Origin: Cellvibrio sp. KY-YJ-3
GTDB taxonomy: Bacteria; Pseudomonadota; Gammaproteobacteria; Pseudomonadales; Cellvibrionaceae
NCBI RefSeq assembly: GCF_008806955.1
Contig: NZ_CP031727.1
Location: 4,416,001 to 4,480,000, forward strand
Length of the DNA stretch: 64,000 nt
Reading direction: 5' to 3'
The notes beneath the pieces are model-generated. The model saw nothing but the letters and a program-made list of their open reading frames with translations, did not search any database and was not told the origin of the DNA. The first letter of the stretch is position 1, and the number at the start of each line of letters is the position of its first letter. Of this stretch, positions 20,518 to 36,521 are shown piece by piece. The position numbers were made by a program, and so were the translations under genes.

Positions 20518-21492
20518 TTATAAAGATTCAATGAATGCATCATCACTGACAAGGCGAACGTAAACAAACTCCGTTTTTTCAACATCGTTTACCTTACCCA
20601 CAGCAAAATTGATTGCCCAAGCGTTATATTCCGTGTAAGCAAAACCTTCCCGGCTCCAATAGTAATCACTTTGGGTAAGCGGAAAATATTTAATGTCAAC
20701 AGCAGGATTATGTTGCCCAGATTTAACTATAGATTCTAATTCCAATACGCTTGGAACATGCCAACTATTTGTGCCACAAAGCGACATCGAATTTATCGCA
20801 ATGCTGTGCATGGATATATTGCAATCTTTCAAATTACCCGTTTTATCTTCCGTAAAATATGGGCAATTACTAACAATCCGCTGATTATCCTCTATTGACA
20901 GCGAGCCTGACGCGTCGTCACTCCAGCGGTACCGAAACTCGTGAGATAATCCCGGCGCACTTACACTTTTACTTTCCCATAAAAGGTTGGTTTTGTTGTC
21001 GAATATACATGACCAAACTTCAGCATCATCGGCAAGCCGGTTTCCAAATGAATCTATCTTGATAAAACGATGCCTTTTAGGCAGGTCGTTATCTTTATCA
21101 TCGAGATTCAACTCACTTCCAAGCGGTGCTTCAGACGACTCACTAGGCGCATCGTCAACTGACATATCTTTTATTTTTCGCTCTGACTCAAATACTTCGG
21201 TGATATCCTGAGCATGTTTTTGAGATTCTTTATCAAGATCCGAGAGGGCGATACTACTTGAGTGTTTATTTGAAGAGGTTGGCTGTATTGAATCAGATAG
21301 CTTTTTTTCAAACTTATCTTTCTCTCCAATATTTTCATTCACACCAGAACCAGCATGATGAATGGTTTCATTAGAGTGGTGTGCTGACTTAGTTTCTGAA
21401 TTTTCCTTAAGAAATTCTTTAAAATGCAACGCGAAGAATGTTGCGGCTATGCTTACAGCCACCAAAATTGTAAGTAATCGTTTTGTTTGCAT
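20518..21492 (-). CDS. Membrane-anchored DUF1566 (Lcl C-terminal-like) protein
   Basis: A 324-residue protein. The start is ATG 21492, which has AAAGGGA 5 nt upstream; an earlier in-frame ATG at 21528 lacks one. One N-terminal membrane helix (LLTILVAVSIAATFFAL) is followed by a ~130-residue polar, Ser/Glu/Lys-rich disordered linker. The C-terminal DUF1566 domain (about 160-324) shows WSCIFDNKTNLLWESKS, WHVPSVLELESIV, YYWSREGFAYTEYNAWAINF and VRLV. DUF1566 domains resemble C-type-lectin folds on cell-surface proteins. AT-rich like the preceding gene. Role unknown. Confidence 0.75.
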   Translation of the reverse strand: MQTKRLLTILVAVSIAATFFALHFKEFLKENSETKSAHHSNETIHHAGSGVNENIGEKDKFEKKLSDSIQPTSSNKHSSSIALSDLDKESQKHAQDITEVFESERKIKDMSVDDAPSESSEAPLGSELNLDDKDNDLPKRHRFIKIDSFGNRLADDAEVWSCIFDNKTNLLWESKSVSAPGLSHEFRYRWSDDASGSLSIEDNQRIVSNCPYFTEDKTGNLKDCNISMHSIAINSMSLCGTNSWHVPSVLELESIVKSGQHNPAVDIKYFPLTQSDYYWSREGFAYTEYNAWAINFAVGKVNDVEKTEFVYVRLVSDDAFIESL

Positions 21493-21572
21493 AAATCCCT
21501 TTCCGTGAGCGCGTAGCTTCAGCGCCATTTCTGCTCGACATTCCTGTTGAATTTACTCGATCATAAATAAAA

Positions 21573-22975: not shown

Positions 22976-25900
22976 TTATTTGCGCAAAATGTAGTTTTTG
23001 GTTTGAGTGAATTCCACCATCAAATCCAACAGGTTGGCATTGGTGGCGGTTTTGAATTCACGACCAAAAACTTGCAAGGTACAGCTGTCGCTCGCCTCCT
23101 CCAGTTGGCCGCGAGTGTAGCGATACCACTGACGCGCATAACAGGCTTGCGCATTCGGGCTTTGGGCGAGCAAATCGGTCAACTCATCCATGCCGTGATA
23201 CAGAGTCACAGGTTCGGACTCGGATAAATAAGTCTCGGCCGAATTCAAGCTGCCTATTTCACCCAGCGAGTTGATGGCTTTTACCAGACCGTTGTCGGTG
23301 GTTTCGCTGTTCACATACAGGCCAAGGGCGTTGTAATTTTCCAAACCAAAACCTATGCCGTCGATGTACTGGTGACAGGACTCGCAGCCCTCTTGCAAAT
23401 GCGCGGATTCAAACCGCTCACGCACGGTGAGGCTTGGATCTTCCTGCGGTTTTAACTCCGCGCCCACTGGCGGTGGCGGGAAGTCCTGACACAACAAATT
23501 GCGTCGCACAAACAAACCGCGTTTGACCGGATGGGTTTTCTCCGAGGCGGATTGAATCGCCAGAATACCGGCATGCCCCAATACCCCACGACGCTCGGCA
23601 TTCACGCCGCTGTAATCCACGCGCTGCACGCCGCTACCACCCGGCCAGTTCAGGCCGTAATGGTTGGCCATCTGCTGGGTCATGTAGCTGTAGTTAGCGG
23701 TGAGCAATTCCTTGTAACTGCCGCCGCCAAATACTGTGCGTTTTACAAACTCGATGGTCTCGGCCTTCATGTCCGCCTTGAGGCTATTACTGATGGCGGT
23801 GGTTTTGATGTCTTTGTCCAAATCCAGCCAACCGGTAATAAAGCGCTCAAAAGCGACTTGGGCTTTTGGATCCTGCAACATGCTGCGCACGCGGGTGGCG
23901 ATTTGTTCCGGCGAACTCAACTGCCCAGCATCGGCGGCGGCCATAAGAGTGGCATCCGGCGTAGTCGCCCAGTAGGTATAGGAGATCATGGCGGCGACTT
24001 CATAGTCGGTCAGCTCGTAATAGTTCCCTACTGGCACACCCACTTCCGAGCGATAGAGCATGGAGGGCGAGGACAAAATCGCCGTGAGCAAGGCCAAGTC
24101 GCCCTGCGCACTGTGCAGTGCCACCAGCTTGGTTACTTCGCTCGAACTTAATGGCCGACGGAAGGCGCGCTTGCCAAAGTTCTGCACAAAACAAGTCACG
24201 TTGTTACAACCGGGAGCGAGGCTGTAGAGGTTGGTCACCATGCCCGCCGCCGCTTCTGCCGCGAGTACATAACCTTTGGCATAGTCGTTGGTGAACACCG
24301 CATTGGCGTTGGTTTTGAAGCCGTTAACCGGCAAGTCGCCCGGAATACGGCCACTGGTGACATCGATAGGGGTGGTTAAACCCAGTAAATCGCGCACCGA
24401 GTTGTTGTATTCCAGCGTTGATAACAAGCGGAAACTGCGATCTTGTGGGATCAAATCGTCCAGGCTTTCAGCATCACACACACCTGCGGGCGGCAGTATG
24501 GCATCCGCCAAAATCATCGCGGCGATACTGGTAGCACAACTGCCAGTACAGGTGCCAAGGCTCGCACCATTGGTGTCTTTGGGCATATTGGTGGCGATGT
24601 AGTCCGCCAATGTTTGCAGGTTGTAGCGACCAGCAATCGCTTGGTTAGTGAGCTTGTAACTGCCGGTCTGACCATCGCTACCGTGACAACCCACACAGCC
24701 CTGACTTTGGTAATGGCCGCGCGCTACTTCATGTTGATCGGTGATGGCATCAAACACCGCCAGCAGCGTCAGCGACAGCGCATTGCCCACCACCATTTGG
24801 GTAGTGGCACTATTGGCATCCAACAAGTAAGCCGCGCCGGTACCTTCCCAGTGCACAAACTGCATGCCGGGGCCGGCGGGATTGGCGTTGATATCCAACA
24901 AAGTACCAGGCACAAACAACTTGCCACTCAGGTTGCCGCTGGCGCCGATACTCGCACTGCCGTTACCGACCTGAATCTGGGTGCCTGCTTCCACTGCAGC
25001 TGCAGCGGGTTCAGCAGCCAGCCAGCCATTGTCATACCAGCTTGGCTGGGCCTGATTCACGGTAAGGCCGGTGCCGGTCTGGTTAGCGCCGTTATTGCTG
25101 AAAATAATATTGGTCGCACCGCTGGTGTTCGCCCAGCTGGCGGGAATCACCAAGCGCAGCCAGCCTGCGCCATAGGCCGTGGCCGCCTCGGTCAGCGCAG
25201 TTCCCGGCCATGGGCCAGTGCGCGGTGTTTCTACACCGTTTTGGTTAGTCCACACATAGGCTGACACTGTGCCCCAGTTGGCAGGCTTTTTCACATACAC
25301 ATACTGCCCCTGCCCCAACCCCGTCACGGTGTAACTAGTAGTCAGGTCGCCGTAGAGGGCGTTAATAGTGGTGGTACCTGCTGCGGTGCCTGCGGTGAGT
25401 AAACCGAAGGCCGATACAGTCGCCACCTGTGGGTTGCTGCTGGTCCAAATCACCCGTGAAGTCATGCCCTGCAAGCCATCTGCCGCCGTAGCCACGAGTG
25501 CCAGCTGGTGCTTTTCACCTGCCAGCAAACGCACATTGGCACGGCCGACAATAGTCAGTGCGGTGATGGGGTTGGATGGCGGCACCACCTCCAGCGTGAT
25601 GCTATCGCTGTAGCCGTCACTGCTCGCGGTGATGGTTACCGTGCCGGTGCTTAATGCCGAGAGGTTGATGGCGGCGCCGGTTTTACCTTGGGTAGAAATC
25701 ACCGCCGGGTTGCTGGAACTCCAGCTCACCTCACCCACCGCAGGCAGTTGGGTGCTGTTGCTGTAGAGCATCGCCAGACTCAGGCCGATGACCTCGTTCA
25801 CTTCGGCGCTGGTTTTACTGGCGCTGAGTGCAACACCGGTTTGCACTACATCCACACCCAATTCATTGATCCAATTGCGGAACAGGGTTTCCGCCTGGGC

Positions 25901-28900
25901 ATTGGTTTCGGTGGAGCCAAAAGGCATGCGCATACCGGAACCGGTTTGGTATTTGTAAAGGTTGCTATTGGCGGGAATGCCCGGAATTACCCGGTTGCTC
26001 TGGTTGACCAGCTTCATGGATTCCAGCGCGGTGTCAAAACGCAAATCCATACCGCCTGAGGTACCGGCGTGACAGTGGGCGCAGTTAACATCCAGGTAAG
26101 CCTTGGCGCGTTCGGTCAAACTCGCGTTGCTATCGGTTGGCGCCGCAAACTGCGCATAGCTGCTGGCATTGCCAATGGCGCTGCTAAACAGGTTGATGCT
26201 GTTGAGCACTGTCAGTTGGTTAGCGGTCACGCCCTGGTAATTGAAGTTGCCGTTGAGTTGACGGGTGCTTAGCGCCAGCGGGGTGAGTTGACCCTCGGCA
26301 TTTTTATGACAGCCGCCACAGGTGCTGCCGGTTTCCACTTTGCGCGTCACACTCACCAAGCCGCCATCCGGCACCACGGCCGATTCAGTAACCAAATCGG
26401 CATCAGTTCCGGCGCTATTCCACTGGTAGTTAGCGGCCTGCCAACCGGTTTCCTGACGGAACAAAACCGAGGTGGTAAAGGGTTTATTGGCATTGCTGGC
26501 GGTGGCTACGGCCAGGTGTTTTACCACCACCGAGCCGACCGGCAAGTCCCAGAGTGCTGTCGGGTCAAAGCCCGTTGTGCTGCTATTGGGCAGGGCGATA
26601 AAGTGGCGCATTTTGCCGCCATCAAACCAACCGCCGCTATTGAGCGAATACTCAATCACGCCGTGGGCCGGAATCAGGTTAGCCAAATCGGCAAACAGAC
26701 CGGTGGTGGAAAGTTTGGTCGGGATCTGCGCGGTAGCGACATCGTCATCCACCACTTTGAAAATGCTGGATGGCCCACCCAATTCGCGGCCGTGGCTGGA
26801 GATCAGCAGGTTCTTCTGTAAATCCTTGCCTATCGACGAGATGTAGTAAGGGAATGCTTCGCTGATCAGTTTCTTCGCCTGCCCGTCATTGCTCACCGAC
26901 CAGAGGCGCTTGGTCACGTAATCGCCAAAAATAAAACTGCCATTGAGCGCCGGTAATTGGGTGCCGCGATAGACAAAACCACCAATGATCGACACGCCGG
27001 AAGTACGGCCATAACCATCGCGCGGCGGCACATAATCCGTCAGGCAATTTTTGCTGGCAGCACCACCCAAGGTGCCACGGTTACGGGTGCCTTCACACAC
27101 CGGCCAACCATAGTTTTGGCCTTTGGTGATGATGTTTACTTCCTCATAGGCCAGATCGGTGTCCTGCCCGATTTCGGTTTCCCACAGGGTGTAGGGGGCA
27201 TCGGTATCAAACGCCCAGCGCCAGGGGTTGCGATGGCCCATAGACCAGATCTCCGGCAAATAACCCGCCTGCCCGACAAAAGGGTTGTCCGCCGGCACGC
27301 TGTAATACTTGCCATTCACTGGCGTCGCCAGCGGCTGAATGCGGATAAATTTGCCGCGCAAGGTAGTCGGATCTTGCGCGCTGTTGTTGTGGCGGCGCTG
27401 ATAAGCATCGCTCGGCTGCGGGTTGAGTGGGAAGGCGCTATGTCCATAACCGCCCTCGCCGATGCCTACATAGAGGTAACCCTCGGTGGGGTGGAATTGC
27501 ATCATGCCACCCTTGTGATCCTCACCCGGTTGCGGAATGCGCAGCAGCTCGACCTTGGACCCAGCAGAGGTTGGGTTTGCCGGGTTATCAAGCGTCCAGC
27601 GCTCGATAATCGCATCGCCGGTTTTCCCGCCCACTATCCCATCGGTGCGCGGGTAGAAATTATCGCTCTCACCAAAAATGTAATAGACGTAGATAAAACC
27701 ATTGCTGGCGTAGTGCGGGTCAAAGGCCATGCTGAGCATGCCGCTTTCGTTGCTGTTGAGCACAGTGGTTTTGATATCCAACAACTTGCGCACTTCTGCC
27801 GGCACTACCGATTCTTTGTTGGGGAATGCGTAGATCGCGCCCTCTTTATCCACCACGTACACCAAATCATTGGCGCCGTCGTTAGTCACCATTACCGGTG
27901 AAAAGAAAAAGGATTCCAACGCCGGGAAGGCGTTCACAAAGCGGTATTTACCGCTGCTCACCGTGCCGGTAATCGGGAAGCCAAGTGGCGCTGCCAATTG
28001 TGGGCGCTCAGGTAAACCTTGAGTCGCCGCAACAACATTGATCACCAGGGTATCGGTCACTGTTGAGCCGTTTGCAGCCGTGAGTGTGAGTGTGACCGTG
28101 TGATTGCCAAGACTGGTCAATGGCGGCGTCACCACTTGTTTACCCACCAGCGCGCCCGCCCAAGCGGTACTGGTCCAGCTGGCCGTCGTGTAATCGCCAG
28201 TGGATGCTGCCGCCGACAATGCCTGACGACCATTCACATTTGCTTTGCGATCCACCCCCGCATTAGCGACCAGGGTTGCAGGCACGCCGCAGGCCGCCGG
28301 TGTTTTCCAGGACGCAGTACCAAAGTCATAACAATTATTGGGTGCGACAAAATTTAAATCGCCCGTTTTAGGGTTGCCGTTTGCGCTAAACACCATGCCC
28401 GCCGATGTGAGCGCGCCCGTGAATTGATAGCTGTAAATTGTCGGTGCATTCGCAAGGCGAACCATCGCAGGCCCCGGCCACACACTGCCAGTACGCGCAG
28501 GCACGGCATTGAAAAAATGCACGTTTACACTGGCCCAGTTAGCGGTATTTTTAAAATACAGGGTGGTATTTGTGGCGGCCACGCTTGAGGGGGTACTGGA
28601 AGAGGTTTGTGCAACGCTTGACGATGCTATCGACAGACTGGATGAGCTTGGCGCAACACTTGAAGAAGCAGGTGCAACACTGCTTGATGCCGGTGCAGAG
28701 GAGGATGCCACTGCAGTGGTAAAGCCGCACTGCGCAAGAGTTTTCCATACAGTATTTTCATAACAACCGGCGCCGGTAAATTTCAAATTCGCACTTTGCG
28801 GCGCACCGGTATTGTTAAAAATAATATCCAGCGAGGTTGGCATAACACCAGCAGCCAAGTCCGCGCTAAAGTCGTAACAATAAAAAACGCCACGCTTGGT

Positions 28901-29803
28901 CATACTCTTACCGGGCCAAGCGGGCAAAGCGGTAATGGCCCCTGCAGGAGCAGGGTTCCAAAAATAAAGTGAGGGGTTTGCGTAATTAGCAGGATTATTA
29001 AAACAAATCGAATTGGCGCTAATGATTTGCGTCGCTACCGATGATGCCGCGACACTGGATGGCACGCTCGAAGGTGCAACACTGGAGGCGACAATGGAAG
29101 AAACCGCACTGGACGATGACGCCGCATTTGCTAAATAAAACCCGCACTGCGGCAAACTTTTCCACACGGTATTTTCATAACAACCCGCGCCGCTACCTGA
29201 ACCATTAAAAGTGAGATTGGCGGTTTGATTTGCACCGTTGTTACTAAAAATAATACTGAGCGATGTTGGCAATGCACTCGCTGTTAAATGGCTCGCCAAA
29301 TCATAGCAATAATAATTGCCAATCTTGACCATCGCCCTGCCCGGCCAGGCAGGTAAATTGGTCATGCTGGACGCAGGTGTAGGCGCCCAGAAATAAATAC
29401 TGGGGTTGGCAAAATTGCCGGGGTTATTAAAACAAACACTGCTGCCTGAGACTGTCGCCGCTAATTTTACGGCAGAAATTGCCTTGCTCGTTTCATTGAA
29501 AGCAATGTGATAATCACCCGTAGAGGCGATTAAAAAATCTTGCGCCGGAAAGGTTTCATTCCAATTGTCGGTATAGCGACCAACCTTAAAGCGCGGATTA
29601 GTCCCTGCAAAATTTTGTCGCGTCTCCCACAAACCTGTTGCGGTGTTTTTCGTCATGGCAGTGGCGACCCAATCCGTGGGAGTACCGCGAAAATAAGCAT
29701 TGCTCCACTGGGCGCTACTCCCATGGGAATAAGCAAGGGCGACAACACTGAACAAAAGAGTGAACCACCCTTTTGCCGCAAAACAGGCTGATAACTTACG
29801 CAT
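22976..29803 (-). CDS. Giant secreted starch-binding / PQQ dehydrogenase-like / multihaem / DUF1592 fusion
   Basis: 2275 residues. Signal peptide ~1-32, then a CBM-like beta domain (33-115). Three starch-binding CBM26-like modules (118-222, 266-360, 412-500), each with WPGxxM, are joined by Ser/Ala linkers (223-262, 361-411). A PKD-like domain (503-595) and a PQQ glucose/sorbosone dehydrogenase-like propeller (~605-1020, HKGGMMQFHPTEGYLYVGIG, QNYGWPVCEG) follow. A region with haem motifs CGGCH (1162) and CAHCH (1241), two Big2 domains (~1317-1492), a fourth CBM26-like module (~1497-1585), a repeat domain, and cytochrome c CVGCH (1703) come next. DUF1587/1595/1592/1588/1585 occupy ~1785-2275, with CESCH at 2140. 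Known parts suggest oxidation of a starch-type glucan with electrons passing through haems; this is inference. Frame intact. First gene of a pair with DUF1552. Confidence 0.85.
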   Translation of the reverse strand: MRKLSACFAAKGWFTLLFSVVALAYSHGSSAQWSNAYFRGTPTDWVATAMTKNTATGLWETRQNFAGTNPRFKVGRYTDNWNETFPAQDFLIASTGDYHIAFNETSKAISAVKLAATVSGSSVCFNNPGNFANPSIYFWAPTPASSMTNLPAWPGRAMVKIGNYYCYDLASHLTASALPTSLSIIFSNNGANQTANLTFNGSGSGAGCYENTVWKSLPQCGFYLANAASSSSAVSSIVASSVAPSSVPSSVAASSVATQIISANSICFNNPANYANPSLYFWNPAPAGAITALPAWPGKSMTKRGVFYCYDFSADLAAGVMPTSLDIIFNNTGAPQSANLKFTGAGCYENTVWKTLAQCGFTTAVASSSAPASSSVAPASSSVAPSSSSLSIASSSVAQTSSSTPSSVAATNTTLYFKNTANWASVNVHFFNAVPARTGSVWPGPAMVRLANAPTIYSYQFTGALTSAGMVFSANGNPKTGDLNFVAPNNCYDFGTASWKTPAACGVPATLVANAGVDRKANVNGRQALSAAASTGDYTTASWTSTAWAGALVGKQVVTPPLTSLGNHTVTLTLTAANGSTVTDTLVINVVAATQGLPERPQLAAPLGFPITGTVSSGKYRFVNAFPALESFFFSPVMVTNDGANDLVYVVDKEGAIYAFPNKESVVPAEVRKLLDIKTTVLNSNESGMLSMAFDPHYASNGFIYVYYIFGESDNFYPRTDGIVGGKTGDAIIERWTLDNPANPTSAGSKVELLRIPQPGEDHKGGMMQFHPTEGYLYVGIGEGGYGHSAFPLNPQPSDAYQRRHNNSAQDPTTLRGKFIRIQPLATPVNGKYYSVPADNPFVGQAGYLPEIWSMGHRNPWRWAFDTDAPYTLWETEIGQDTDLAYEEVNIITKGQNYGWPVCEGTRNRGTLGGAASKNCLTDYVPPRDGYGRTSGVSIIGGFVYRGTQLPALNGSFIFGDYVTKRLWSVSNDGQAKKLISEAFPYYISSIGKDLQKNLLISSHGRELGGPSSIFKVVDDDVATAQIPTKLSTTGLFADLANLIPAHGVIEYSLNSGGWFDGGKMRHFIALPNSSTTGFDPTALWDLPVGSVVVKHLAVATASNANKPFTTSVLFRQETGWQAANYQWNSAGTDADLVTESAVVPDGGLVSVTRKVETGSTCGGCHKNAEGQLTPLALSTRQLNGNFNYQGVTANQLTVLNSINLFSSAIGNASSYAQFAAPTDSNASLTERAKAYLDVNCAHCHAGTSGGMDLRFDTALESMKLVNQSNRVIPGIPANSNLYKYQTGSGMRMPFGSTETNAQAETLFRNWINELGVDVVQTGVALSASKTSAEVNEVIGLSLAMLYSNSTQLPAVGEVSWSSSNPAVISTQGKTGAAINLSALSTGTVTITASSDGYSDSITLEVVPPSNPITALTIVGRANVRLLAGEKHQLALVATAADGLQGMTSRVIWTSSNPQVATVSAFGLLTAGTAAGTTTINALYGDLTTSYTVTGLGQGQYVYVKKPANWGTVSAYVWTNQNGVETPRTGPWPGTALTEAATAYGAGWLRLVIPASWANTSGATNIIFSNNGANQTGTGLTVNQAQPSWYDNGWLAAEPAAAAVEAGTQIQVGNGSASIGASGNLSGKLFVPGTLLDINANPAGPGMQFVHWEGTGAAYLLDANSATTQMVVGNALSLTLLAVFDAITDQHEVARGHYQSQGCVGCHGSDGQTGSYKLTNQAIAGRYNLQTLADYIATNMPKDTNGASLGTCTGSCATSIAAMILADAILPPAGVCDAESLDDLIPQDRSFRLLSTLEYNNSVRDLLGLTTPIDVTSGRIPGDLPVNGFKTNANAVFTNDYAKGYVLAAEAAAGMVTNLYSLAPGCNNVTCFVQNFGKRAFRRPLSSSEVTKLVALHSAQGDLALLTAILSSPSMLYRSEVGVPVGNYYELTDYEVAAMISYTYWATTPDATLMAAADAGQLSSPEQIATRVRSMLQDPKAQVAFERFITGWLDLDKDIKTTAISNSLKADMKAETIEFVKRTVFGGGSYKELLTANYSYMTQQMANHYGLNWPGGSGVQRVDYSGVNAERRGVLGHAGILAIQSASEKTHPVKRGLFVRRNLLCQDFPPPPVGAELKPQEDPSLTVRERFESAHLQEGCESCHQYIDGIGFGLENYNALGLYVNSETTDNGLVKAINSLGEIGSLNSAETYLSESEPVTLYHGMDELTDLLAQSPNAQACYARQWYRYTRGQLEEASDSCTLQVFGREFKTATNANLLDLMVEFTQTKNYILRK

Positions 29804-30391: not shown

Positions 30392-31117
30392 TTAGTCACC
30401 ACGCACATAGCGTTGACCAAAACGCGTTAATACTGCCAGCGCGATGCCAACCAATAACCAAACTGGCGCAACCACTAGCGCGAGCAATATGCCATCCACC
30501 ACCGCCATGCCCGCAATCATGCGTGGAATAACCGGCCCGGTGTAAGGTTTGCCGCGCATATGCTCATAGCGTGCAACAAAGGTTAGCGATAGGGTGTACA
30601 GAAACTGCAATATGGCGGCAATAATCACCCACTGCAACCACTGGGCGGTTAACGCCATAAGCACCACTACAAATACCAGTGCACGCGCTAACCCCATTAC
30701 CAAAATACTGGCGGCCGTTTTTTTATGGAACACATCATAAATTGCAATGGTTGCAAACAGTGCGCTTGCAGCACACAGACCTGCCAGCGCAAAGGGTGTG
30801 AGTGCGACAAGAATAAAACCCGTTAAAAATAATGTAATCGCAATAATCACCGCCGTTTTTACGCTGACACTGCCAGTCACCAGCGGGCGATAGGGTTGGT
30901 GTTGTTTGTCCCATTGATAGTCACACAGATCATTCAGCACCATGCCGCCGCAATAAAATGCCGACAGCGCAAGCGCCAATACCGGCAGCCACACCCACTG
31001 CACCGTAGCAGGAACAGCATGATCAATTAACACCACGGCCGTGAGCACATTCATCCACACTGTGGGCAAGTTACTGATACGGCACAGAGCCAAGAGTGGT
31101 TTTATTTTCATGTACAT
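30392..31117 (-). CDS. eboC: EboC, UbiA-like prenyltransferase
   Basis: About 241 residues from ATG 31117 (an ATG 2 codons later is equally possible; a far upstream start at 31174 adds an unlikely N-terminus and overlaps a palindromic repeat). A polytopic membrane protein of the UbiA superfamily: start RISNLPTVWMNVLTAVVL, and the Mg2+/diphosphate motif NDLCDYQWD followed by PYRPLVTGSVS. The second Asp-rich motif is degenerate (IYDVFHK). It is likely to transfer a prenyl group or anchor a lipid-type product. It is the last gene of the ebo cluster, following eboF with a palindromic repeat in the spacer. Confidence 0.87.
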   Translation of the reverse strand: MYMKIKPLLALCRISNLPTVWMNVLTAVVLIDHAVPATVQWVWLPVLALALSAFYCGGMVLNDLCDYQWDKQHQPYRPLVTGSVSVKTAVIIAITLFLTGFILVALTPFALAGLCAASALFATIAIYDVFHKKTAASILVMGLARALVFVVVLMALTAQWLQWVIIAAILQFLYTLSLTFVARYEHMRGKPYTGPVIPRMIAGMAVVDGILLALVVAPVWLLVGIALAVLTRFGQRYVRGD

Positions 31118-31169
31118 ATCCCAAGAGACAAAGTTGAACGCCAAGAAATTTCTGATAAATACACTTTTT

Positions 31170-31200
31170 GTCATACTCGCGAACGCGAGTATCCATAAAA
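31170..31200. repeat. REP-like palindrome, copy 1 (eboF-eboC spacer)
   Basis: A 31-bp unit containing the perfect dyad ATACTCGCG-AA-CGCGAGTAT. It is repeated with one mismatch at 32591-32621, and both copies are in intergenic spacers of the ebo operon. The form resembles the widespread GTCAT...CCCGCG-NN-CGCGGG...ATCCA REP family. Confidence 0.8.
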
Positions 31201-31201
31201 G

Positions 31202-32566
31202 TTAATCAAACACATGGCGCAGCATTAAATCGCATACGTCAGTGGCGGCAATAGGTTCACGGGGCACCAGACGCGCCTCGGTGGACATAAAAATCGGCGT
31301 AGAGTCTGCACCAGGCAATGCCAAGCCGTGTGAACCTTTTACCTGTTCCGGCTGCATGGAAATCACATCCATTAAATAGCGGAAGCCTAATTTTTTGCGC
31401 AGCACCTTACCCGCCATGCGCAGCATAGGGAAACGCAATTTGGGATTGAAAAATAATTCGCAGGGGTCATAACCGGGTTTGCGATGAATCTCTACTGTGG
31501 GTGCAAAATCCGGCGCCTTGTTATCGTCCAGCCAATAATAATAAGTAAACCAGGCATTGGCGTCGGCCAATAAAATAAGTTCGCCCGAGCGCTCATGATC
31601 CAAGCCCAGCTCGCGTTTTCCTTCTGTATCCAACACCCGCGCAATGCCAGGTTGCTGCTCAAATAATTGTTTAACGGTGGGAATTAATTCAGCGTTTTGA
31701 ATATATACATGGGCGATTTGATGGTCGGCCACGGCAAAGGCTTTACTGGTTGCAGTTTCCAAATACTCGCGCCCCAAATCGGTTTTTACCGCGAGTAAAT
31801 TCGCTTCGCGCAAAATACGATTGGGGTGTACCGGTGTGTCCACCGCGCCAATACCGTATTCAGATAACACAATCACCCGGCAATTGCGCGCGGTAAAAAA
31901 GTCGAGCAGTTTGCCCACCAATCCATCCACTTCTTGCAGGTCTTTGCTGATATCGCCTTGGGGGCCGACTTTTTGTAAGCAGTAATCCAAATGCGGCAAA
32001 TACACCAATTGCAAACTGGGGGATTTTTTTAGCTCCACGTTTATCGCGGCGTCGGCAATCCAGGCGCTGGATTTAATGGAAGTCGCTGGCCCCCAAAATT
32101 GAAACAAGGGAAATGGCCCAAGTTCTTGCGATAATTCTTCGCGCCATTCCAGCGGGTAGGTATAACAATCCGGCAGCTTGCTACCATCGGCGCAATAGAG
32201 CGGGCGCGGCGTTAGTGTGTAGTCGGCACCGGTGGCCATGGCATACCACCAGAAGGTATTGGCGCAGGTGAACGACGAATCTTTTGCGCGTGCTATATCC
32301 CAAATTTTGGGCGCTTGAATTAAGCGGTTACTCTGCCGCCACAACCAAACTTCATTAAGGTCGCGAAAATACCAGCCGTTGGCAACTATGCCGTGCTCTG
32401 CCGGTGTTTTTCCGGTGAGGTAAGTGGCTTGCACGGCGCAGGTCACGGCGGGCACCATGGGTTTTATATCCACACTGTTGCCCAGCAACTTTTGTAAGTT
32501 GGGTGTGTGCTCGCCAATTAAATTGCGCGTTAGCCCCACCACATTAATCACCAGCGTTCGTTGCAT
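31202..32566 (-). CDS. eboF: EboF, nucleotide pyrophosphatase/phosphodiesterase-like protein
   Basis: A 454-residue protein of the alkaline phosphatase / type I phosphodiesterase superfamily. The N-terminus MQRTLVINVVGLTRNLIGEHTP carries the expected first metal-site region, with Asn where many phosphatases have Asp; the nucleophile region is VTCAVQATYLTGKTPAEHG, then IVLSEYGIGAVDTPVHPNRI, and LALPGADSTPIFM near the end. No signal peptide is seen. In ebo clusters this gene is annotated as EboF; its substrate is unknown, and the altered metal residues may mean a changed or lost phosphatase activity. It lies between eboE and eboC. Confidence 0.85.
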   Translation of the reverse strand: MQRTLVINVVGLTRNLIGEHTPNLQKLLGNSVDIKPMVPAVTCAVQATYLTGKTPAEHGIVANGWYFRDLNEVWLWRQSNRLIQAPKIWDIARAKDSSFTCANTFWWYAMATGADYTLTPRPLYCADGSKLPDCYTYPLEWREELSQELGPFPLFQFWGPATSIKSSAWIADAAINVELKKSPSLQLVYLPHLDYCLQKVGPQGDISKDLQEVDGLVGKLLDFFTARNCRVIVLSEYGIGAVDTPVHPNRILREANLLAVKTDLGREYLETATSKAFAVADHQIAHVYIQNAELIPTVKQLFEQQPGIARVLDTEGKRELGLDHERSGELILLADANAWFTYYYWLDDNKAPDFAPTVEIHRKPGYDPCELFFNPKLRFPMLRMAGKVLRKKLGFRYLMDVISMQPEQVKGSHGLALPGADSTPIFMSTEARLVPREPIAATDVCDLMLRHVFD

Positions 32567-32590
32567 AAAACTTACCTATTGTATTTTTTC

Positions 32591-32621
32591 GTCATACTCG
32601 CGAACGCGGGTATCCATAAAA
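32591..32621. repeat. REP-like palindrome, copy 2 (eboE-eboF spacer)
   Basis: Same 31-bp unit as 31170-31200 with one substitution in the second arm (CGCGGGTAT for CGCGAGTAT), same orientation. It occupies half of the 58-bp spacer between eboE and eboF. Confidence 0.8.
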
Positions 32622-32624
32622 ATC

Positions 32625-33728
32625 TTAATTATTTTGGCCGAGCAGATTTTTCACCCACTGCAATTCGCGCGCAATGGATACATCCAGCGGGTAATCCCGT
32701 AAGTGGGCGGGCAGATTTTTAAAACTGTAGGTTTCCACTTCTAATGGAATAGACGCATCCAATTGCGGTAAAAAATCGGTCAGGAAAAATTGCGTGGTGG
32801 TACATGGCCCGAGGTTATCGATAAAAATCGGCACATGAAAATGCACACGGCATTCGCTGTAAACTTCGCCATTTTCAAGTGCAGCTTGCAGCTCCGGCAA
32901 ATCGCTAAAACGATGCAAACCCTGCGCATGTTTGGCAACCGCCTGATGCAAATACACCGGCTCGTTAAATTGCATTAGCGTGGCAATTTGCTCGTCTTGC
33001 GCCCGCAGGGCACTGGAGACTTGTACTTTCGCAATAGTGATATTGGCAGCGCGCAGCCGCGCGAGCACATCGGCGGCATCTTCAAACTCTACCGCCTGAT
33101 GGCAACAGTCGAAACAAATCCCAATGTAGGTTTTTAGTTCCGCCGGAAAATCCATGCGCGCAAAAAAGTCGATGGTTTCAGCGGTGGTTTCTAATACACA
33201 GCAGGGTTCAGGTTCCAGCGCCAACTGGATCAGAATGCCATTGCGGTCATGCAGTGATTTTAAATGCTCAAGTACGGCGATTACGTTTTTGCGCACTAGC
33301 GGCCAATCGGCTTCCGCAAAACCTTGTTTATAGGCAATAGGTACAGTGGAAATCGATAATTGCTGCGCACGCGTGGTTAAAGCCACCGCCAGATCGGCTA
33401 AACGCTGGGTATAAACCACTCGCTCCTGCGTGCGCCAGTCGGGCTCATAGACAGCTTCTTTTACCGGCTGATCATGAAATGTGCCGTAGGGAAAACCGTT
33501 AATGGTAAGCAAGTAACAATCGTGTTGTTCACACCAGGTGCGGAACTCGGCGATTTTTTTATCGTCCAGTTCAACGCTGGCCTGCTGGGCGATACGCAGC
33601 CCGAGCGGGAACGCCGCATTAGGTGAAACTTGTTGTTTTACACTCAAGCCGTGGGATTCAAGGTTATCCAGCACGTGCTGCCAGGATTCGCCGGGGTGAA
33701 TATTGCTGCAGTAAGTTAATTGGCGCAT
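32625..33728 (-). CDS. eboE: EboE, TIM-barrel metabolite traffic protein
   Basis: About 367 residues from ATG 33728, 2 nt after the eboD stop; a TTG two codons earlier is an alternative. The sequence follows the xylose-isomerase-like TIM barrel pattern: LTYCSNIHPGESWQHVLDNL at the start, GFPYGTFH, then LALEPEPCCVLETTAETIDF and IGICFDCCHQAVEFED, which supply metal-binding Glu, Asp and His residues. It is the EboE member of the ebo set, linked in other bacteria to export or trafficking of a small metabolite rather than sugar isomerisation. The exact reaction is unknown. Confidence 0.87.
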   Translation of the reverse strand: MRQLTYCSNIHPGESWQHVLDNLESHGLSVKQQVSPNAAFPLGLRIAQQASVELDDKKIAEFRTWCEQHDCYLLTINGFPYGTFHDQPVKEAVYEPDWRTQERVVYTQRLADLAVALTTRAQQLSISTVPIAYKQGFAEADWPLVRKNVIAVLEHLKSLHDRNGILIQLALEPEPCCVLETTAETIDFFARMDFPAELKTYIGICFDCCHQAVEFEDAADVLARLRAANITIAKVQVSSALRAQDEQIATLMQFNEPVYLHQAVAKHAQGLHRFSDLPELQAALENGEVYSECRVHFHVPIFIDNLGPCTTTQFFLTDFLPQLDASIPLEVETYSFKNLPAHLRDYPLDVSIARELQWVKNLLGQNN

Positions 33729-33730
33729 GG

Positions 33731-34879
33731 TCAATTGGTGGCCGGAAAATCACTAAGTAATTTATCAATACTGCGCTGCATCACATCAAGCTCAATATGA
33801 TTAAATTGCGCCGCCTGCCCTTCGCCAGTTAATAAGGTAATACATAATTCCCCGCCCAAATGCTCGCGGAAATCCTGCAGGGCTTTGTGAATATCCAGGC
33901 GCGTTAACGCACTGTGACTCAGGTTAAAACCCAAATCGCGCAGTGTTGCCACTATTTTTTCCAACAGTGTTTGGGTAATAAAACCCATGTTGGCGGAATA
34001 GAGTGAATCCAGCGCAATGCCAATCGCGACTGCTTCGCCGTGACGTAAATCGTGGCCGGATAATTCTTCCAGGCGATGTGCCGACCAATGGCCAAAATCG
34101 AGTGGACGCGCGCTGCCGTACTCAAAGGGGTCGCCGCTGGTGGCGATATGATGCAAGTGCAATTCGGCGCAGCGACGAATCATATAGGCTACCGCTTGCT
34201 CATCAAATTCAGCGAGCAAGTGGCGACTCTCGTGCAGCCAATTAAAAAAATCCGCGTCTTTAATCAGCGCGACTTTTACCGCCTCGGCAATACCGGCGCG
34301 TTGGTCGCGTTTGGGCAGGGTTTGTAAAAAAGCAAAATCGTTAATCACTGCAAAGGGCGGTACAAAGGTACCCAAATAATTTTTGCGGCCTAAAAAGTTC
34401 ACCGCATTTTTTACACCGATGCCCGCATCGTTTTGCCCCAGCACGGTCGTGGGCATACGAATTAAACGAATACCGCGGTGTGCTGTTGCTGCCGCATATC
34501 CCATCGCATCAATCACAGAACCACCGCCAATCACCAGTACAAAACTGTGACGATCGATTTTGTAATCCTGTGTCAGGCGATAGAATTCTTCGACTTCTTG
34601 CGGATCGCTTTTGCAAATCTCACCACTGCGCACAATTAACGGCGGTAGAATTAAATTAATCGTATCGCTGTGACAGCGTGCATATTCCGCTAGGTCATCT
34701 ATTAATTGCGGGTGATTTTTCAATACATCAGCGTCTATAACCGGAAATACTTTATGCTCGCGATCGCCAGCGCGCTGCAGAATTTCGCGCAGCACCGGGT
34801 TTTCTACTGCAAAGGTATGCCGGGTAAAACTCACCGGAAATTCATAGCTGACACTGAAGCGTTGGATAATTTGCGACAT
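33731..34879 (-). CDS. eboD: EboD, 3-dehydroquinate synthase-like sugar phosphate cyclase
   Basis: A 382-residue protein of the dehydroquinate synthase superfamily. NAD-binding GGGSVIDAMGYAAATAHRG (about 118-136), PTTVLGQNDAGIGVKNAVNF (~143-162), the metal-site region GIAEAVKVALIKD and FGHWSAHRLEELSGHDLRHGE with the Zn-binding His residues are all present. It is a paralogue, not the shikimate enzyme, because it sits in the ebo cluster; EboD-type enzymes are thought to form a cyclitol from a sugar phosphate. The start is ATG 34879, 18 nt after eboB. Confidence 0.9.
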   Translation of the reverse strand: MSQIIQRFSVSYEFPVSFTRHTFAVENPVLREILQRAGDREHKVFPVIDADVLKNHPQLIDDLAEYARCHSDTINLILPPLIVRSGEICKSDPQEVEEFYRLTQDYKIDRHSFVLVIGGGSVIDAMGYAAATAHRGIRLIRMPTTVLGQNDAGIGVKNAVNFLGRKNYLGTFVPPFAVINDFAFLQTLPKRDQRAGIAEAVKVALIKDADFFNWLHESRHLLAEFDEQAVAYMIRRCAELHLHHIATSGDPFEYGSARPLDFGHWSAHRLEELSGHDLRHGEAVAIGIALDSLYSANMGFITQTLLEKIVATLRDLGFNLSHSALTRLDIHKALQDFREHLGGELCITLLTGEGQAAQFNHIELDVMQRSIDKLLSDFPATN

Positions 34880-34897
34880 CTTTTTTTACTACGTCTT

Positions 34898-35794
34898 TTA
34901 GTTGGGAACAGGTTCGTCAACACGGGGTTTTTGCCCGCGCAATACCGAGTTATCACTGTAAGACTGGCGCTGATCAATCACCGGCGTTTGCATTAACGCA
35001 TCCACATCAATTTGACCCGACTGGGCGTAGGCGCTAATCGCATTGGTCCAGGTGGTGAGTTCAACGGCAGCGGGATCAATGCCGCGCTCTAACATCAGTT
35101 GCGCGGTTTTGGGAACCGCGAGCGGATCGCTCACGCCCCAGTCGGCGGAGCTGTCGATAATAATGCGTTCAGGGCCATATTCGCGCACAATTTCCACCAT
35201 GCGCGCCGAGCCCATTTTGGTATTGGGGTAAATAGTAAACGCCGCCCAGGCGCCGTAATCCAATACGTCGCGCACGGTTTCTTCGTTGTTGTGATCCATA
35301 ATGAGTTTGTGCATGGGCACACCCATTTCGCGCGCGACATCCATGGAGCGCAACACGCCGCGTTTTTTATCGCGATGGGGCGAATGCACCATCACCAGCA
35401 TGTCGTAATCCACTGCCATTTTTAATTGCGCTTGATAGGCATATTCTTCGGCGGGTGTCATTTCGTCGTAGCCAATTTCGCCAATCGCGACCACGCCTTC
35501 TTTTAAAATAAATTGCGGCAAAATTTCCAATACTTCGCGTGCTAGACCTTCGTTGTTGGCCTCTTTGGAATTTAAGCCCATGGCACAGTAATGGGCGATA
35601 CCGAATTGCGAGGCGCGAAAGCGCTCCCAGCCAATTAAGCTGGCGTAGTAATCGATAAACGAACCGACATTGGTGCGCGGTTGCCCCAACCAGAACGCCG
35701 GTTCAATCACGGCGCGAATGCCGGCGGCGGCCATGGCCTGGTAATCGTCTGTTGTGCGACTGCACATATGAATATGCGGATCAAAAAATTTCAT
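34898..35794 (-). CDS. eboB: EboB, TatD-like metal-dependent hydrolase
   Basis: A 298-residue amidohydrolase-like TIM barrel. Metal-site elements: FFDPHIHMCSR at the N-terminus (HxH), GEIGYDEMTPAEE (Glu ligand), MVMVHSPHRDKKRG, LIMDHNNEETV, and IIIDSSADWGVSD near residue 220 (Asp ligand). The sequence matches the EboB branch of the TatD family more than genuine TatD DNases. It follows eboA by about 55 bp and precedes eboD by 18 bp. Confidence 0.9.
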   Translation of the reverse strand: MKFFDPHIHMCSRTTDDYQAMAAAGIRAVIEPAFWLGQPRTNVGSFIDYYASLIGWERFRASQFGIAHYCAMGLNSKEANNEGLAREVLEILPQFILKEGVVAIGEIGYDEMTPAEEYAYQAQLKMAVDYDMLVMVHSPHRDKKRGVLRSMDVAREMGVPMHKLIMDHNNEETVRDVLDYGAWAAFTIYPNTKMGSARMVEIVREYGPERIIIDSSADWGVSDPLAVPKTAQLMLERGIDPAAVELTTWTNAISAYAQSGQIDVDALMQTPVIDQRQSYSDNSVLRGQKPRVDEPVPN

Positions 35795-35849
35795 AATTAA
35801 AATTCCCGGTGATTGTCTGTCGCACTGACAGAGAAAATATTGAGGCCTA

Positions 35850-36521
35850 TTACCCCACTAATAACTGCACATCCGCTGGAATATCGCGCCCGGCACTGCG
35901 TCGTTCATCGATATAGTCATTTACCATCGCGACTAATTCTGGCGTAGTACGCAAATTAACGCCGTAAATATTGCCCAGCGGTTCGCCAATAAATAAAGCT
36001 TTGAGTAGCATTTGATTCCAGGCGAGAGCGTCGAAATACAAAAACGGATACGGCGAATCGCAGGCGACAGCAGAAAAGACCGAGCGCATATTGGTGCGAC
36101 ACCCTTCGGCGGCGCGCCAGACATGTTGTTGTGACTCAGGCAATAAACAGAGCGCGCGATAGTAAGCGCAGGACTCACCCTCATCGGCAAAGCGAAACCA
36201 TTGATTAAAACGCTGGGCAAAGGCGGGCTCCGCCAGATCCGCGCGCGCCAGCACAAAACTGACACGCACCGTATCCAGCAAGCTCCAGGCCTTGGGGCTC
36301 CATCCGGGAATTAACGCGGCGGCGCGTTCAAGGTCCGCACCAGAGGGGGCAAGCGGCTGGCGCGGCACATGCCGGCTCGCCAACGAAACCAGCTGGGTAA
36401 ATCGATCGTCCGTAACGCCAGTGGAAATTTGATCCTGAGTGCGCTGTATAAATTCCTGGGTGGTTGAATTCACACGCACTGCCAACACACTATTCAATAG
36501 CGCCAGACAGGGTTTACTCAT
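35850..36521 (-). CDS. eboA: EboA domain protein
   Basis: A 223-residue soluble helical protein. Central motifs SPKAWSLLDTVRVSFVLAR, EGESCAYYRALCLLPE, EGCRTNMRSVFSAVACDSPY and LAWNQMLLKALFIGEPLGNI match the EboA family, with its conserved R-T-N-x-x-x-V-F core and W-N-Q-M-V-L-K-A-L-F-x-G motif. It has no known enzymatic fold and defines the ebo cluster. It is the first gene of the minus-strand cluster A-B-D-E-F-C; the promoter must lie in the 304-bp gap before dacA. Confidence 0.92.
   Translation of the reverse strand: MSKPCLALLNSVLAVRVNSTTQEFIQRTQDQISTGVTDDRFTQLVSLASRHVPRQPLAPSGADLERAAALIPGWSPKAWSLLDTVRVSFVLARADLAEPAFAQRFNQWFRFADEGESCAYYRALCLLPESQQHVWRAAEGCRTNMRSVFSAVACDSPYPFLYFDALAWNQMLLKALFIGEPLGNIYGVNLRTTPELVAMVNDYIDERRSAGRDIPADVQLLVG

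Follow-up and report, generated by a model that had tools for sequence, protein, structure and literature searches.

Large bacterial proteins that join carbohydrate-binding modules (CBMs) to an X183 cytochrome and an X132 domain have been described from Cellvibrio japonicus (Cbp2D; PMC8981238, PMC12542752) and Teredinibacter turnerae (TERTU_3803; PMC10916295). Cbp2D combines CBM2, YceI/X158 and FN3 with X183 and X132, and its X183 domain gives electrons to lytic polysaccharide monooxygenases (LPMOs). Within the accounts in these papers no electron-yielding domain is evident, and the coupling of Cbp2D to an electron-generating reaction is a key question for its authors (PMC8981238). TERTU_3803 has a signal peptide, cellulose-type CBM10 and CBM2, the X122 and SGL domains, and a propeller (X173) like those of the glucose/sorbosone dehydrogenases (GSDH). 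Fungal AA12-AA8-CBM1 pyranose dehydrogenases join a CBM to a six-bladed GSDH-type propeller, which binds pyrroloquinoline quinone (PQQ), and to a b-type AA8 cytochrome (PMC4133262, PMC6881789). PSCyt3-PSD proteins of Planctomycetes and Verrucomicrobia also have CBM fusions and a usual neighbour gene family (PMC5615132). Here, we analyze a 2275-residue protein encoded in a 64,000-nucleotide stretch of Cellvibrio sp. KY-YJ-3 (contig NZ_CP031727.1, positions 4,416,001 to 4,480,000; the whole stretch is called the window), which a first-pass annotation made from the sequence alone had read as an undescribed, self-contained, starch-targeted oxidase with a PQQ propeller and its own haem relay. The protein is best filed as a starch-directed relative of Cbp2D and TERTU_3803 with an extra dihaem domain; despite its family name the propeller probably uses no PQQ, and a DUF1552 gene constantly follows.

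The likeness to TERTU_3803 covers a signal-like start, CBMs, propeller, X183 and X132, and that to Cbp2D covers a CBM, X183, X132 and the DUF1552 gene that comes after. The present protein differs in having CBM26 instead of the CBM10 and CBM2 of TERTU_3803, CBM26 and a propeller instead of the CBM2, YceI/X158 and FN3 of Cbp2D, and a dihaem region that TERTU_3803 as described lacks. With the fungal enzymes it shares a CBM, propeller and cytochrome, but its haem motifs are c-type CxxCH, no cytochrome b family is among the 14 Pfam matches, and the PQQ-site Arg621 of AA12, compared here from the published description, is missing. Soluble glucose dehydrogenase (sGDH) and the aldose sugar dehydrogenase (Asd) YliI belong to the same propeller family and share the catalytic His and the Arg-Asn pair, but have Lys377 and Arg406/Arg408, which are missing here. 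PSCyt and PSD domains are common to our protein and those of Planctomycetes and Verrucomicrobia, for which a GSDH-dihaem-X183 fusion is not mentioned in the parts of PMC5615132 considered. The claim of an undescribed system thus holds in part: the X183-X132 architecture had already been described in Cbp2D and TERTU_3803, whereas no description of the CBM26-GSDH-dihaem-X183-X132 form was found in searches of open-licence PubMed Central (PMC) papers.

Results

The gene is one uninterrupted frame, as annotated, and lies on the minus strand (the first plus-strand frame over 22976-29803 is riddled with stops). We searched for the protein in 21 genomes of the genus, 144 of the family and a named genome collection, and analyzed 46 loci, of which 35, our own included, are non-redundant (differing in the last 1200 residues). 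Omitted before this count were L055 (contig end), L019/L031 (genome G010, where the protein is spread over two contigs), L017, L020 and L032 (duplicates of kept loci), and L070 and L071 (CBM part only); the start of L067 may be truncated by a contig end. In each of the 35 the protein has exactly four CxxCH motifs and is followed immediately by a same-strand DUF1552 gene, which reads as two frames in L065; a further genome, G120, agrees. Because the genome is a single contig and the 35 loci share this architecture, an assembly error joining separate genes is excluded. At least 32 of the 144 family genomes hold the protein (counted by hand: 29 with a single match, G008 and G120 with two pieces in one frame, and G010 with two contigs; the scan scored two candidates per genome). 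Named hosts are Cellvibrio, Marinagarivorans, Microbulbifer, an uncultured Pseudomonadales bacterium, Catenovulum and a Colwellia metagenome-assembled genome.

The family placement is firm. CBM26 (four stretches, E 1.7e-63, 211 bits against a cut-off of 28.1) and GSDH (residues 649-976, E 5.8e-38, 131.4 bits against 25), the two profiles on which the annotation had staked its claim, both score above their Pfam cut-offs, as do Big_2 (two stretches, E 7.3e-10), PSCyt1 (residues 1241-1294, E 7.7e-6), PSD3/DUF1587 (E 1.2e-7), PSD5/DUF1595 (E 1.9e-10), PSD4/DUF1592 (E 4.5e-31), PSCyt3/DUF1588 (E 3.3e-30) and PSD2/DUF1585 (E 1.6e-7). The annotated Big2 domains and C-terminal DUF block therefore stand, and the CxxCH motifs lie exactly at residues 1162, 1241, 1703 and 2140 as given. 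The WPGxxM motif ascribed to all four CBM26 modules is found in three (153, 296 and 442), the fourth (1532) reading WPGTAL, and the PKD domain had no Pfam match at E<=0.1; residues 505-595 look Ig-like by eye. A signal-like start, again as annotated, suggests secretion, and haem is predicted to bind at the four CxxCH motifs. New relative to the annotation are the SO2930-like dihaem cytochrome, the X183-type cytochrome, an N-module stretch shared with an amylase, and the DUF1552 gene.

In the propeller, D762, H763, R858, N859, E877 and Q880 are invariant in all 35 loci, the first four being the counterparts of sGDH Asp143, His144, Arg228 and Asn229. The Lys377 site is occupied by Val in every locus, and residues 983-992, the expected place of Arg406 and Arg408, hold no Arg in any of them. 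E. coli YliI served to check the register; the two Arg positions may shift by one, with the outcome unchanged. The sGDH numbering is also used for Asp143, Arg228, Asn229 and Arg406. Lys377, Arg408, His144 and the AA12 residues follow PMC6881789, which describes AA12 Arg621 as shared with sGDH and Asd; on our sequence it would fall at the Arg406 equivalent. Profile alignments stop before the anchor region for sGDH and just short of the two arginines for YliI (2g8s), and residues 905-1030 alone have HHIP as their sole PDB matches at E<=10 (26 residues aligned, E 0.004). Lys965, two residues off the Lys377 site, is invariant. Of the long parts of the protein, the propeller is conserved best within the close group (0.88-0.98 identity), and GSDH with a similar two-CxxCH region is also found as separate genes of ~760-800 aa.

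The sole pqq gene searched, pqqC, which bears on PQQ binding only indirectly, was found in none of the 21 genomes of the genus, although 16 have a completeness of 90% or more; the search itself works, because 19 of 95 genomes at order level exceed the cut-off. The nearest relative with biochemical data is TERTU_3803, whose pf08450-X173 pair bound no PQQ by isothermal titration calorimetry and made no gluconate from glucose (PMC10916295), although a negative PQQ result with part of the protein expressed in E. coli is no proof. L092 is the apparent ortholog of TERTU_3803: its 1867 residues, in the order CBM10, SGL, GSDH, CBM2, cytochrome and PSD/PSCyt3, hold the published domain set except X122, which Pfam does not show. 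It has two CxxCH motifs against the four of our protein and a DUF1552 gene next door, and its propeller shares 35% identity with ours across 390 positions (E 1e-56). The annotated use of PQQ is thus unsupported in view of the missing anchors, the pqqC search and the tested relative.

Residues 1028-1315 match TIGR03806, the NCBIfam model of the SO2930 dihaem cytochrome, over the whole model (E 2.9e-48), and are classed as a relative and not a member because the score of 164.7 bits is below the curated cut-off of 313.3. With phmmer, residues 1690-1775 match 8q1w (E 4.7e-5) and 7b21, from Cbp2D (E 1.2e-4); the c555 construct 9l08 does better over the whole sequence (E 6.2e-8), but through three weak repeats. 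A C-terminal profile of 24 sequences, cbp2D-type ones among them, matches 7b21 at E 1.1e-18, and also 8q1v and 8q1w. Judged by these alignments, residues 1690-1775 qualify as an X183 cytochrome. Met1293 and Met1740 are conserved and may be sixth haem ligands. The C-terminal block, residues 1776-2275, is a PSD/PSCyt3 block with a CxxCH motif and is equated with the X132 of the CAZy authors (PMC8981238, PMC10916295) because of the DUF1587 label in a Cbp2D figure legend and the matching domain order. A kinship of X132 with dihaem peroxidases/DHOR was unsupported (10.5%, confined to the X183 part).

The DUF1552 protein has three His (326, 330 and 383) that are invariant in 23 sequences. Against the C. 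japonicus type (L018), our locus is 62% identical in GSDH, 35% in X132 and 30% in DUF1552, whereas against Catenovulum (L063) the values are 56%, 71% and 69%, with a change-over near residues 1330-1400. Distances correlate at r 0.986 between X132 and DUF1552 and at r 0.816 between GSDH and DUF1552 (partial correlations 0.958 and -0.172; 34 loci, L065 dropped), two groups driving the correlation. These opposite identity patterns argue that the C-terminal half and the next gene have been exchanged jointly between lineages, and because of this joint exchange X132 and DUF1552 look like one working unit or complex, beside cbp2D too. That the oxidase is self-contained, as annotated, is doubtful, since the DUF1552 gene is next door in all 35 loci.

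We take G002 to be C. japonicus Ueda107; from a suitable Met, its cbp2D- and cbp2E-like frames come to 1122 and 350 aa, as published. Its cbp2D-like gene is followed by a DUF1552 gene, the frame of which opens ~30 bases on, and DUF1552 likewise follows the cbp2D-type genes of our own genome and of G004 (L251 2390-7047, L007 6349-10993 and L253 2415-7072, respectively). Possibly, the DUF1552 gene is an overlooked component of the cbp2E-cbp2D locus; no mention of DUF1552 under that name was seen in the three main texts on Cbp2D and TERTU_3803, one of them naming DUF1587 only. A third PSCyt3 gene of our genome (G000:C1:1137642; L008 7331-9835, minus strand) is an 835-residue frame with its own DUF1552 neighbour and no CBM by Pfam.

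DUF1552 has seven PDB matches at E<=5, all of them sulfatases (E 0.09-1.7), and its profile gave 38.6% over 32 columns when compared with three E. coli sulfatases, where a GSDH control gave 0.2%. The value of 0.8% with the phosphodiesterase of the window speaks against kinship, and membership in the alkaline-phosphatase/sulfatase superfamily is at most suggested. The Lcl_C-domain gene after DUF1552 (Table 1) also occurs in TERTU_3803-like clusters (L092 424-1302, minus strand), in two copies; none was found in the 4.7 kb downstream of DUF1552 in G007.

A portion of residues 33-122 is found again in further frames from the genus, of which the one scanned (L050) is an alpha-amylase, and this N-module and the CBM26 modules are predicted to bind starch. 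AA10 LPMOs occur at 50 places in 17 of the 21 genus genomes, once in our own; of these places 30 loci were examined, and none has a CBM26-like or N-module stretch (one frame is cut by the locus end). The same queries match all 35 proteins of the present kind. The cbp26A gene of C. japonicus may be either the ortholog L018 or the gene of another CBM26 protein, L044. The latter (L044 1-8379, minus strand, G002) is a 4012-residue open frame, 2793 residues of it covered, with CBM26 and PKD, CAP and teneurin-like domains. Upregulation of cbp26A is reported for mannans, xyloglucan or starch in PMC12542752 and for fungal necromass in PMC11497827; the main text of a starch RNAseq paper (PMC10714805) holds none of the terms looked for.

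An ebo operon borders the gene directly on its upstream side (Table 1). EboE is found in 35 of the 144 family genomes and in 15 of 369 genomes of the class, our own included. Unexpectedly, 13 of 49 ebo windows (L159-L207, up to 10 kb on each side of EboE, some cut by contig ends; 10 of 35 in the family and 3 of 14 in other families) contain a GSDH, X132 or dihaem gene, against none of 40 control windows (Fisher p 1.9e-4), the controls comprising 796,040 bases from 22 ebo-bearing family genomes and a query set slightly larger than for the 35. Per genus, 7 of 26 have such a neighbour (hand count), with a chance p of 5.5e-5 to 1.9e-3 at a background of 4-7.2% per window, where 4% is an estimate and 7.2% the upper bound for 0/40; related genomes are not independent, and zero control windows from nine genera are not decisive alone. 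The neighbourhood occurs in several arrangements, and EboC, EboD and EboE stand beside the protein in three of four Catenovulum loci (L063, L065 and L066), which were found through the protein and are not counted. EboE is present in 3 of the 18 named loci L052-L069.

The five ebo-adjacent GSDH that were compared with E. coli YliI are all without the two PQQ arginines. In the GSDH of the three other-family windows neither site holds an Arg, though L206 may have a Lys there, and the Lys site of L198 is ambiguous. Among ebo genomes, pqqC is found in none of 35 in the family and 6 of 14 outside it, including one of the three with such a window (G573). Relatives of EboC farnesylate quinoline carboxylic acids in vitro (PMC9235831), ebo is implicated in the export of scytonemin intermediates to the periplasm (PMC6282210), and the parts of PMC5133447 considered name no GSDH-like neighbours of ebo. 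It is a long shot that the HHIP-like GSDH propellers of polysaccharide-bound redox proteins rely on a novel cofactor or mediator, distinct from PQQ, which the orphan ebo operon, with its sugar-phosphate-cyclase-like EboD and UbiA-like EboC, produces and conveys to the periplasm. A tight link is disfavoured by the 25 of 35 family ebo windows that lack such a neighbour and by the 22 of 32 protein-bearing genomes that give no EboE match. An obligate role as cofactor source is weakened because EboE occurs in only 10 of these 32, against 25 of 112 genomes without the protein (Fisher p 0.35).

A second family of large redox proteins combines GSDH and CxxCH regions with ThuA, and with F5/8C in two of three genes (Table 1); in G008 such a gene adjoins the ebo operon. 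Genes for related TonB-dependent receptors neighbour the present gene in C. japonicus (L048 5404-7296, minus strand) and a ThuA-GSDH gene in G009 (L040 11247-13142, plus strand), and are possibly importers of product or cofactor.

Table 1 Features of the gene and its surroundings (window coordinates unless a locus is given).
Feature	Residues	Position	Strand	Basis or remark
Lcl_C-domain gene after DUF1552		20518..21528	-	Pfam
DUF1552 (HXXSHH) partner gene	443 aa	21627..22958	-	Pfam; Tat-like start MQRRDFLR (by eye)
Whole gene	2275 aa	22976..29803	-	one of 35 non-redundant loci
X132 block PSD3-PSD5-PSD4-PSCyt3-PSD2	1776-2275	22979..24478	-	CxxCH 2140
X183-type monohaem cytochrome	1690-1775	24479..24736	-	CxxCH 1703, conserved Met1740
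CBM26 no. 4	~1501-1592	25028..25303	-	Pfam stretch and WPG at 1532; limits by eye
Big_2-like region	~1316-1500	25304..25858	-	Pfam; approximate limits
SO2930-like dihaem cytochrome	1028-1315	25859..26722	-	CxxCH 1162 and 1241
GSDH propeller	649-976	26876..27859	-	Pfam and alignments; C-terminally HHIP-like, without PQQ anchors
CBM26 no. 3	~410-500	28304..28576	-	Pfam stretch and WPG at 442; limits by eye
CBM26 no. 2	~262-345	28769..29020	-	Pfam stretch and WPG at 296; limits by eye
CBM26 no. 1	123-198	29210..29437	-	Pfam
N-terminal module	33-122	29438..29707	-	partly recurs in alpha-amylase frame of genus
Signal peptide	1-31	29711..29803	-	by eye from sequence, no lipobox seen
ebo operon		30392..36521	-	directly upstream of gene
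EboC-like UbiA		30392-31174	-	
Phosphodiesterase		31202-32566	-	
EboE		32625-33734	-	
AroB-like (EboD)		33731-34879	-	
TatD-like (EboB by its family)		34898-35794	-	
Gene without Pfam match		35850-36521	-	
ThuA-GSDH genes		L040 5477-11158, L046 5655-10283, L043 5784-9308	+	

Discussion

We favour, with moderate confidence, the reading of a secreted protein of the Cbp2D/TERTU_3803 type that is anchored on starch and transfers electrons, in which a propeller, a dihaem cytochrome, X183 and X132 would act in series with the DUF1552 protein. The CBM26 modules and the amylase-type N-module would anchor it to starch or glycogen, where the HHIP-branch propeller, its catalytic core kept, probably oxidizes the end of a sugar or a similar substrate, using either some cofactor that is not tightly bound PQQ or PQQ that is scavenged and sits in an altered site. 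Electrons would then pass from the propeller through the fused dihaem cytochrome and X183 to the X132 haem, and X132 and the DUF1552 protein may jointly form the terminal site. From the first-pass annotation this retains, at the level of sequence, the signal-like start, starch-type CBMs, four haem motifs and redox domains, and leaves the PQQ claim unsupported.

Several points weigh against it. Haem order and electron direction are not readable from sequence, the joint exchange of X132 and DUF1552 could reflect the linkage of neighbouring genes alone, and no starch-directed LPMO that could accept the electrons was seen. To our knowledge no enzyme activity is on record for propellers of the HHIP-like branch, and HHIP is a hint that propellers of this kind can serve for binding alone. 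The one tested propeller of this branch was inactive (PMC10916295).

The propeller could be a non-catalytic, HHIP-like binding domain, with the protein only conducting electrons to, or reducing, a partner on starch such as an LPMO, the role proposed for Cbp2D; this possibility we take seriously but consider unlikely. It fits the inactive relative, the HHIP match of the C-terminal part and the reduction of LPMOs by X183 (PMC8981238), but sits poorly with an invariant dehydrogenase core, with a propeller that within the close group is better conserved than any other long part, with separate genes that combine GSDH and a similar two-CxxCH region, and with the lack of a starch LPMO among the 30 AA10 loci examined.

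We doubt that the protein is an AA12-like PQQ sugar dehydrogenase acting on starch with its own haem relay and PQQ scavenged from outside. The catalytic His, Asp, Arg and Asn and the nearby Lys965 are kept, and fungal AA12 binds PQQ while lacking Lys377, in eukaryotes for which PQQ synthesis has not been reported (PMC6881789). AA12, however, keeps Arg621 and YliI two arginines where residues 983-992 of our protein have none, pqqC was not found in the genus and the tested relative bound no PQQ (PMC10916295).

It is very improbable that X132 and DUF1552 are a polysaccharide-attacking oxidative unit that the propeller only feeds or primes, given that, although direct cellulose cleavage by Cbp2D/Cbp2E has been proposed (PMC12542752) and a DUF1552 gene follows both the cbp2D-like gene of G002 and the present gene in 35 loci, the unit has no known fold or activity and the weak sulfatase trace of DUF1552 would rather suggest a hydrolase.

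The annotation 'PQQ-dependent sugar dehydrogenase' is unsafe for propellers of the HHIP-like branch, and the constant DUF1552 neighbour is a candidate partner protein. In the favoured reading a candidate electron source, a dihaem relay and X183-X132 would be joined in one starch-directed chain, which bears on the electron supply for oxidative polysaccharide attack.

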